64,000 nucleotides of DNA from Streptomyces malaysiensis subsp. samsunensis (GTDB lineage Bacteria > Actinomycetota > Actinomycetes > Streptomycetales > Streptomycetaceae), in the NCBI RefSeq assembly GCF_024519315.1, contig NZ_JANIIC010000003.1:248001-312000 (forward strand), written 5' to 3'. The translations under genes and the position numbers were made by a program. Below the pieces are notes generated by a model. The model saw only the letters and a program-made list of their open reading frames with translations, searched no databases and was not told the origin of the DNA. This document shows positions 47,754 through 49,726 of this stretch, one piece after another. How positions within the stretch are numbered: position 1 is the stretch's first letter; each line of letters opens with the position of its first letter.

Positions 47754-47854
47754 CTGTGATCACCCTCCGACCTCGCCCACCTTACGGGCCGTCGTGAAAT
47801 CCCCCGGCAACAAGCTATTGACATGACATTCGGACAGGAGTCATCGTACTCGCC

Positions 47855-47880
47855 TAGAGCGCGCTAGTAGAGCGCGCTAG
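47855..47880 (+). promoter_or_regulatory. Tandem 13-base operator-like repeat in front of decayed operon
   Basis: TAGAGCGCGCTAG occurs twice with no gap (47855-47867, 47868-47880); each unit contains the palindrome AGCGCGCT, a CG-centred dyad as LacI-family proteins prefer. A consensus -35 TTGACA lies at 47818-47823 upstream, so the repeat would sit just downstream of the promoter. Confidence 0.65.
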
Positions 47881-47936
47881 TCAACCGCCTCCCCTGACAT
47901 CTCCCCAGATCCACGGAGCGAAGGGAAATCAGCGTG

Positions 47937-48036
47937 ATGCCGTTCGAAGTGCTGACCATGGGCCGTGTGGGAGTGGATGTGCACCAAGGCGGTGCGCCGC
48001 TTCCAGCGCAAGATCAAGGTCGGCATCATCGGCGTC
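47937..48036 (+). pseudogene. Start of an iolC-like kinase gene fused to a scrap of a Gfo/Idh/MocA gene
   Basis: The first codons read MPFEVLTMGRVGVDV, the typical beginning of IolC-type (5-dehydro-2-deoxygluconokinase, PfkB family) proteins, but the homology stops after 15 residues. Some 25 bases later KIKVGIIG recalls the nucleotide-binding start of Gfo/Idh/MocA dehydrogenases, in another frame. Both pieces are far too short to function. The kinase start is convincing; the dehydrogenase scrap is tentative. Confidence 0.6.
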
Positions 48037-48088
48037 AGTGTGCCGGTGCCCCCTCGCCCACCGTCCCCACTCCGCAGAAGGACACCCC

Positions 48089-48718
48089 ATGGCAACGGCG
48101 CCATCCCCACTCAGCACCACCGCGGGCGATCTGTGCCTGGGCTCCGCCCCCGACTCCTGGGGCATCTGGTTCCCCGAGGACGAGCACCAGGTTTCCCGCA
48201 CCCGCTTCCTCGACGAGCTGGCCGCGGCCGGCTACCAGTGGCTGGAGCTCGGCCCGTAAGGTTATCTGCCCACCGACCCTAAGCGGCTGAAGGACGAGCT
48301 CGACGCCCGTGGTCTGCGGGTGTCCGGCGGTACCGCGTTCGGGGCGCTGAACGAGTCCGACAGCTGCTACACCAACCTCTGCCTGGACACCGGACATGTG
48401 GCCTACGGCGGCGGTGACAACCTCGACCTGATCCGCAGCTTCGGCGAGCGCGTGGGCTATGTGCACATCAAGCAGATGGGCCCCGCCGTCCTCGCCCAGG
48501 TGACCGCCGAGAACCTCTCCTTCGGCGAGGCCGTCAAGCGCGGCGTATGTGTCTCGCCGCCCGCGGGGGTGCCCAAGCCGGCCGATGTGGTGGCCGAACT
48601 CGCCGCGCTGGACGCCGAGTTGTTCGTCATCGTCGAGCAGGATCTGTACCGTGCGCACCCGAGGTGCCGCTGCCCATCGCCGTCAGCACCCGTGAGCACC
48701 TGGCCGGCTGCGGCCTGA
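48089..48718 (+). pseudogene. Broken inosose-dehydratase-like (IolE-type) sugar isomerase gene
   Basis: The first 56 codons encode LGSAPDSWGIWFPEDEHQVSRTRFLDELAAAGYQWLELGP, the family start. A TAA at 48257-48259 stands where relatives have Tyr in GPYGYLPTDP, and the same frame resumes after it with GYLPTDPKRLKDELDARGLRVSGGTAFGAL. About 140 residues are then missing in frame before YTNLCLDTGHVAYGGGDNLDLI. Near 48650 the frame shifts: EQDLY continues as CAPEVPLPIAVSTREHLAGCGLTG in another frame. Nonsense, internal deletion and frameshift together mean the gene is dead. Confidence 0.85.
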
Positions 48719-48737
48719 CCGGAACCCGACGTCCGAC

Positions 48738-48863
48738 CCTCCCTGGGACAGCTACGCCGCCACCGTCATCACCGACGCCGCCGTCCGGTCCCTGGAGTCG
48801 GGCGGCCAGGTCATCACCGTCGGCATGAAGCCCCGACCCGCGTTCTACGGAGCCACCTCGTGA
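48738..48863 (+). pseudogene. C-terminal remnant of a Gfo/Idh/MocA oxidoreductase gene
   Basis: The last 41 codons before the TGA at 48861-48863 encode PWDSYAATVITDAAVRSLE and MKPRPAFYGATS, which matches the C-terminus of Gfo/Idh/MocA sugar dehydrogenases such as inositol 2-dehydrogenase. Everything before it is missing. The stop overlaps the GTG start of the intact isomerase gene, which shows the original genes were translationally coupled. Confidence 0.7.
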
Positions 48864-49726
48864 AGATCGCACTCGACCCCTATATGCTCCGCGCGCTGCC
48901 GCTCGACGAGATGGTGCGCACGGTCGCCGAACTCGGCTATGAATACATCGAGTTGTCCCCACGCGACGACTTCATACCGTTCTTCCTCCACCCCCGGGCG
49001 GACGACGACCGCGTCGCGGCGCTCAAGCGGGCCCTGCGCACCCACGGTGTGCGGCTCTCCTCCGTGCTGCCGCTGTACAAGTGGTCCTCGACCGACGAGA
49101 CCGAGCGGCAGGCCGCCGTCCGCTACTGGAAGCGGATGATCGAGATCACCGCCGACCTCGAATGCCCGCTGATGAACTCGGAGTTCAACGGCCGCCCCGA
49201 ACGCGCCGCCGAGAGCGAGGCCGCCTTCTGGCGCTCGCTGGAGGAACTGCTGCCGCTCTTCGAACGCGAGGGCATCGCCCTCAACCTGGAGGCCCACCCG
49301 GACGACTTCTGCGAGGAGAACACCCCCGCCGTCGATCTGGTCCGCGCCATCAACAAGCCCTGGGTGAACTACCTCTACTGCGCTCCGCACACCTTCCATC
49401 TCTCGGGCGCCGACCCGACGGCGGACATCGCGGCGATGATGCGTTACGCGGGCGACAAGCTCCAGCATGTGCACATCGCGGACTCCTTCAACCACAAGGG
49501 CTCCTCCGGGCTGCGCTACATCCTCAACCCGCCCGGCACCCCCGCCCGCATCCACCAGCACCTGGACATCGGCCAGGGCGAAGTCGACTGGGACACCTTC
49601 TTCGGCACCCTCCGGGAGCTGAACTTCGACGGCGTCGCCACCTCATGTGTCTTCGCCTGGGAGGAACGGGCGCGGAAGTCCTCCGCCTTCATGCTGAACC
49701 GCATCCGTAAGGAGCTCACGGCGTAG
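48860..49726 (+). CDS. Sugar phosphate isomerase/epimerase (TIM barrel, xylose-isomerase-like)
   Basis: A 288-residue TIM-barrel protein of the AP endonuclease 2/xylose-isomerase-like family. Metal-binding residues are expected at Glu in GIALNLEAHPDDF, Asp/His in VHIADSFNHKG and further His/Glu in the C-terminal third. It is full length and uninterrupted. The GTG start overlaps the stop of the dehydrogenase remnant, so it was the next gene of an inositol- or sugar-catabolic operon whose other members are destroyed. Its substrate is unknown; candidates are keto-inositol or ketose intermediates. Confidence 0.88.
   Translation: MKIALDPYMLRALPLDEMVRTVAELGYEYIELSPRDDFIPFFLHPRADDDRVAALKRALRTHGVRLSSVLPLYKWSSTDETERQAAVRYWKRMIEITADLECPLMNSEFNGRPERAAESEAAFWRSLEELLPLFEREGIALNLEAHPDDFCEENTPAVDLVRAINKPWVNYLYCAPHTFHLSGADPTADIAAMMRYAGDKLQHVHIADSFNHKGSSGLRYILNPPGTPARIHQHLDIGQGEVDWDTFFGTLRELNFDGVATSCVFAWEERARKSSAFMLNRIRKELTA

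Follow-up and report, generated by a model that had tools for sequence, protein, structure and literature searches.

An accessory inositol operon has decayed in the 64,000 nucleotides of Streptomyces DNA analysed here, the whole of which is referred to as the window (G000:C223:248001-312000, from a host genome of 11.05 Mb in 306 contigs). No working set of iol genes is left at the locus, whose only open frames are those of a lacI-family repressor gene and of the distal gene iolH. It is likely that a redundant operon was lost step by step and that the retained iolH is under purifying selection, probably controlled by the LacI-type repressor. An earlier note on this DNA had described a ruined inositol operon flanked by a LacI regulator gene and by a single isomerase-like survivor, a description that the comparisons below support. 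It missed that the survivor can be classed by homology as IolH, that most of the lost genes have counterparts at another place in the genome and that relatives display further, mostly independent losses. The named loci nearest to the window are those of Streptomyces niphimycinicus, S. endocoffeicus and S. iranensis, which we take to be members of the violaceusniger group.

The ancestral arrangement can be read from relatives in which the operon is intact. Its gene order is lacI (divergent) followed by iolC, a 290-aa gene, iolB, iolD, iolA, iolE, iolT, iolG and iolH, where "iolT" and "290-aa gene" are labels given in the present analysis. At locus L058 (genome G253), all operon genes from iolC to the TIM-barrel gene are open downstream of the divergent lacI, and iolT codes for an MFS transporter. 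A second intact locus is L081 from S. justiciae, which includes part of lacI. Its products exceed the NCBIfam cut-offs for IolC (377.6 bits for a cut-off of 300), IolB (301.3 for 205), IolD (907.8 for 715) and methylmalonate-semialdehyde dehydrogenase, MMSDH (692.2 for 448.5). IolE has the expected best model with a score of 145 bits, below the cut-off of 290, and the best model of IolG is inositol/D-chiro-inositol dehydrogenase IolG with 484.7 bits, below the cut-off of 540. The 290-aa protein of L081 has no NCBIfam match at E <= 0.01. Across the genus, the set of genes in the operon differs greatly. Genome G253 holds two accessory operons, each with its own lacI, namely the full one at L058 (iolC to iolH) and a short one at L248 (iolE-T-G-H). 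The gene iolT is missing between iolE and iolG in L098, L117, L112, G110 and G225, and iolB is broken or absent at other loci such as L078, L089 and L122. Decay of this operon is thus not confined to one clade.

Table 1. Features of the decayed inositol locus, with positions in the window.
Feature	Position	Strand	Basis or remarks
lacI-family repressor gene, intact, 341 aa	46728..47753	-	Open reading frame; divergent from operon
Conserved upstream region: TTGACA-like box (47818-47823) and double operator-like repeat (~47853-47881)	47818..47881	+	
iolC remnant, codons 1-16	47937..47985	+	DNA alignment to intact locus L058
iolA (mmsA) internal remnant, ~21 codons	47987..48051	+	DNA match; MMSDH model
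iolE pseudogene	48089..48741	+	Stop, in-frame deletion, frameshift, last codons lost
iolG remnant, last 40 codons and stop	48741..48863	+	Alignment to L058; IolG model
iolH, intact, 288-aa xylose-isomerase-like TIM-barrel protein	48860..49726	+	Pfam AP_endonuc_2 (9.1e-53)

Aligned with L058, the remnants of the window (Table 1) follow the intact order: iolC codons 1-16, a piece of iolA, iolE up to ~48352, iolE again from ~48346 to 48741, the end of iolG and iolH. The iolC-like start, previously counted as 15 codons, belongs to a segment (47914-47985) with 91.7% DNA identity to L058. The scrap behind it had been taken for the start of a Gfo/Idh/MocA gene. This identity was rejected, as the DNA matches the inside of iolA both in L058 (80% identity over 65 nt) and in G234 (87.7% over 57 nt, E 8e-15), and MMSDH is the only NCBIfam match of its 25-aa frame (E 0.0018, profile positions 417-437). 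The three lesions previously noticed in the iolE-like gene were all located: a stop at 48257-48259, an in-frame 288-bp deletion near 48346-48352 and a 1-nt frameshift near 48649. A chance match is excluded by the DNA E-values of the two iolE pieces (4e-94 and 6e-143). The former 41-codon Gfo/Idh/MocA end is the end of iolG and matches positions 302-337 of the 343 of the IolG model (E 9.4e-6). Inside this remnant, a GGAG motif (48849-48852) lies ahead of the intact TIM-barrel gene, iolH, whose GTG start overlaps the iolG stop as the earlier note had observed. On the other side, the lacI product matches the Pfam families LacI (3.6e-13) and Peripla_BP_3 (1.2e-35). The alignment with intact Streptomyces loci that the earlier note had proposed gives a count of four deletions, of ~5.8 kb, ~0.17 kb (a size taken from the alignment to G234), 288 bp and 2.36 kb, together with the nonsense codon and the frameshift. 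The claim of several small deletions with preserved gene order therefore holds for their number and for the order, while two of them are not small. The remnants do align with iol genes; a failure to do so had been named as grounds for abandoning the idea of a ruined inositol operon.

The same genome carries a core iol cluster on contig C201 in which every gene is open, with iolG and iolE on one strand and iolC, a 290-aa gene, iolB, iolD and iolA on the other. Its genes are 44-71% identical to their accessory homologues, and a stop within the core iolG match is the natural end of the gene. Neither iolT nor iolH had a match in the C201 stretch searched, and the genome gave no second copy of iolH at E <= 1e-5. 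An iolD-like gene was found at E <= 1e-30 in all 14 genomes tested; it is full-length with at least 57% identity in 13 of them and consists of two pieces on two contigs in G150. The intact core cluster and the iolD-like genes indicate that the decayed operon was for the most part a second copy of a functioning pathway, with the consequence that the accessory copies of iolC, B, D, A, E and G were dispensable, and this redundancy may have permitted the loss of the operon. An inositol cluster occurs in 87% of 1,235 Streptomycetaceae species according to a published survey (PMC9430895), and here a close or moderately close IolH was found at E <= 1e-80 in 61 of 295 genomes of the genus (two of them partial). 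IolH is therefore probably not required for the core pathway.

The window belongs to a clade of nine species (support 100/100) with G165, G150, G055, G096, S. endocoffeicus, S. iranensis, S. sabulosicollis and S. rugosispiralis. G150 and S. niphimycinicus (L064) are apparently the same record and were counted once; S. sparsogenes and S. milbemycinicus were left out of the tree, their lacI being cut or absent. With a deletion defined as a break in the BLAST alignment to G234 missing at least ~60 bp, 17 deletions were counted between iolE and iolG: two in the window, one in G165, three in G150, none in G055, four in G096, three in S. endocoffeicus, one each in S. iranensis and S. sabulosicollis and two in S. 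rugosispiralis. Their ends differ, except that one deletion of G150 and one of S. endocoffeicus nearly coincide. Deletions further upstream were kept out of this count. One of them, from the promoter region through iolE, is common to G165, G150 and G055, another that removes iolC to iolA is common to G096, S. endocoffeicus, S. iranensis and S. rugosispiralis, and both agree with the tree; the window and S. sabulosicollis have their own separate upstream deletions. The gene iolE remains open in S. rugosispiralis, and G055 has kept iolT and iolG.

These sister loci bear on two explanations that involve no decay in place. The deletions could be assembly or sequencing artefacts of a draft genome, as its 306 contigs might suggest. 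This is hardly credible, since the contig of the window measures 330,768 bases, the remnants show numerous private point differences and related but different losses recur in sister species, including G165 (one contig) and G055 (three contigs). Alternatively, the locus could have been acquired by horizontal transfer in an already truncated state, a scenario to which the high variability of operon content across the genus lends something. It is very improbable nonetheless: both DNA flanks are common to G096 and to G055, which keeps iolT and iolG, the remnants are similar to those found in the clade, with which lacI and iolH also group.

All nine species have open frames for iolH and lacI, the five found through lacI as well as the other four. 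None of the 17 deletions enters iolH, the nearest one stopping 61 nt ahead of it (S. iranensis). If deletions were placed at random from iolE to the end of iolH, all 17 would miss iolH with p ~0.004, and the 10 in the lacI-found genomes with p 0.041, rough values that overstate independence because the lineages are related. The main rival of retention under selection is a plain decay still in progress, in which iolH and lacI would merely have not been reached yet and IolH would have no retained role. The avoidance of iolH by the 17 deletions in nine species speaks against it.

Since iolH was the only bait that led to four of the nine species, a survey with lacI as bait is the fairer measure. 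A lacI match at E <= 1e-130 was obtained in 53 of 295 genomes of the genus, among which 48 have a close intact iolH and 36 have iolE; iolH occurs without iolE in 12 and iolE without iolH in none. G047, G050, G105 and G184, with an iolE only 79-80% identical, were excluded from this count. G262 has iolE in the absence of the lacI of interest and of a close iolH. Of 55 lacI loci, 52 were used after G084, G239 and G196, cut by contig ends, had been dropped. The numbers of intact, broken and absent copies are 32, 7 and 13 for iolE, 32, 5 and 15 for iolT, 40, 5 and 7 for iolG and 43, 0 and 9 for iolH. Broken copies thus amount to 0 of 43 for iolH vs 17 of 121 for iolE, iolT and iolG together (Fisher 0.0069, a value that overstates the independence of related loci), which again disfavours plain decay. 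The nine lacI loci devoid of iolH are in its favour and demonstrate that iolH is not an obligatory survivor: G180 keeps iolT only and G263 iolG only. The notion of iolH as the invariable survivor was accordingly rejected, lacI being also found with iolT alone, iolG alone or neither. Five lacI genomes have no close intact iolH, of which G180, G254 and G263 possess a 64-65% identical paralogue elsewhere. No iolH was found in G275 at E <= 1e-80. In G244, an iolH split by a frameshift (L235 9363-10225), either a real pseudogene or a sequencing slip, adjoins a full-length iolG away from lacI.

The dN/dS of the surviving gene, whose determination had also been proposed, is 0.12 within the clade vs 0.09 in ten relatives outside it, and that of lacI 0.21 vs 0.18; these are mean pairwise values that include the time before operon loss. 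Most of the ten outside relatives have larger operons, and S. sparsogenes contributes only a short lacI piece. The low value of iolH is a further argument against decay without selection. On the branch of the window, the iolE remnant has accumulated 14 non-synonymous changes (one of them a stop) and 16 synonymous ones in 219 codons, and iolH 7 and 15, respectively, in 288 codons. With the same five comparators for both genes, the contrast in lineage-specific changes is modest (30 of 657 positions in iolE vs 22 of 864 in iolH, Fisher 0.033). A comparison of 30/657 with 15/864 (Fisher 0.0019) was discarded as the comparator species differed between the two genes. The iolE remnant thus changes faster, but its changes retain a third-position bias (18 of 30), a trace of earlier selection. 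This indicates that inactivation was recent and that iolH may so far just have escaped damage, as plain decay supposes. The IolH of the window has kept all 90 residues that are invariant in 15 sequences from outside the clade. Two changes at such positions occur elsewhere in the clade, Gly226 to Arg in G096, which can be counted for plain decay, and Ile237 to Val in G055. Overall, unselected survival is unlikely.

The assignment of the survivor (48860-49726) to IolH rests on homology and on gene position. A relative with 53.8% identity over 99% of the query is encoded by the Peribacillus plasmid pB in the order methylmalonate-semialdehyde dehydrogenase, iolB, C, D, E, MFS transporter, Gfo/Idh/MocA oxidoreductase, IolH relative, iolI and fba, that is, clear homology is joined to the place between iolG and iolI in a Bacillus-type operon. 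Relatives at E <= 1e-20 occur in 172 plasmid records. On two rhizobial plasmids the relative lies within a few kb of iolC (L273 and L274), beside ABC sugar transporter genes and Gfo/Idh/MocA genes, a neighbourhood that differs from the Bacillus-type operon. The best NCBIfam model for IolH is that of the 5-keto-L-gluconate epimerase IolO (NF041099), an identity that was rejected because the score of 39.8 bits is far below the curated cut-off of 300. Among PDB sequences, TM_0416 (2zvr), presumably an IolO, is alone in matching at E <= 1e-5, and the match covers only residues 23-210. The structure predicted for IolH has a moderate mean pLDDT of 70.1. With this model, Foldseek returned generic sugar-epimerase and isomerase neighbours (TM ~0.6), with IolI (1i60) at rank 46 of the best 50, and such a neighbourhood of a predicted fold does not fix a substrate. 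No biochemical activity of IolH was found in the literature searched, which included PMC4326333 and covered little of the subscription literature. It is conceivable, at somewhat less than even chances, that the function of IolH is independent of the operon altogether: it would be a stand-alone LacI-regulated enzyme, exposed by the repeated loss of its neighbours, for instance one that converts an isomer of inositol or some unrelated sugar acid and feeds the core cluster in trans.

Upstream of the remnants, the TTGACA-like box and the double repeat around AGCGCGCT are recognisable in all 18 upstream regions aligned; the box and the first repeat are nearly unchanged, and the second repeat varies. 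A search of the 11.05 Mb genome for the double repeat with up to three mismatches gave one match, that at the locus with no mismatch, and the backwards control also gave one. The repressor may be expected to bind this double repeat. A scan with the sigma-70 consensus and patterns found no promoter and no terminator, which leaves the promoter role of the region putative. In several relatives, a second operator-like stretch occurs ~1.2-1.4 kb beyond the 3' end of lacI (L051 5150-5178, L052 5513-5542, L063 5457-5484 and L061 4160-4187), which suggests that another gene is under the same repressor there; no second site was found in the genome of the window with up to three mismatches.

According to the favoured reading, stepwise loss with iolH retained by selection, the ancestor would have been an accessory LacI-controlled inositol operon (iolC, 290-aa gene, iolB, D, A, E, T, G and H). 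With an intact core cluster elsewhere, the accessory copies of iolC, B, D, A, E and G would have been dispensable and would have been lost through a series of deletions, a nonsense mutation and a frameshift, with the repressor, the operator region and the distal iolH surviving under purifying selection. The present locus would most likely be a LacI-controlled iolH unit with a decayed leader of ~900 nt. The gene may still be transcribed from the putative promoter, and IolH may act in trans in inositol metabolism, complementing the core cluster that lacks it, perhaps by interconverting inososes. A point against retention is that the window has lost iolT, a gene for which the core cluster gave no match either.

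Operon decay is common, and the locus is ordinary in kind. No description of decay as seen here was noticed in the titles or abstract openings of the literature matches listed. The value of the locus lies in repetition: within one clade, the species lost different pieces of a redundant operon, and the gene that all nine sampled species keep intact in it is iolH, for which the literature searched, as far as accessible, gave no biochemical role. This makes it a mildly interesting natural experiment on IolH function, for which a LacI protein offers an assay handle, a single operator-like site being recognisable in the 11 Mb genome.

The gene order of Bacillus-type inositol operons is iolABCDEFGHIJ. 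The Streptomyces operon shares with them the succession of iolE, MFS transporter gene, iolG and iolH, as on the Peribacillus plasmid pB, but differs by its divergent lacI, by iolC in first position, by the 290-aa gene and by having no iolI seen in the operon; in the window, moreover, all operon genes but iolH are lost. The core cluster of C201 contains homologues of iolC, the 290-aa gene, iolB, D, A, E and G, but it is intact, its iolE and iolG are divergent from iolC to iolA and neither iolT nor iolH was matched within the part of C201 searched. Finally, the locus resembles the pseudogenes of redundant operons in general by its deletions, nonsense codon, frameshift and preserved gene order, and stands apart from them in that losses recur among sister species and spare the same regulator and distal gene each time.
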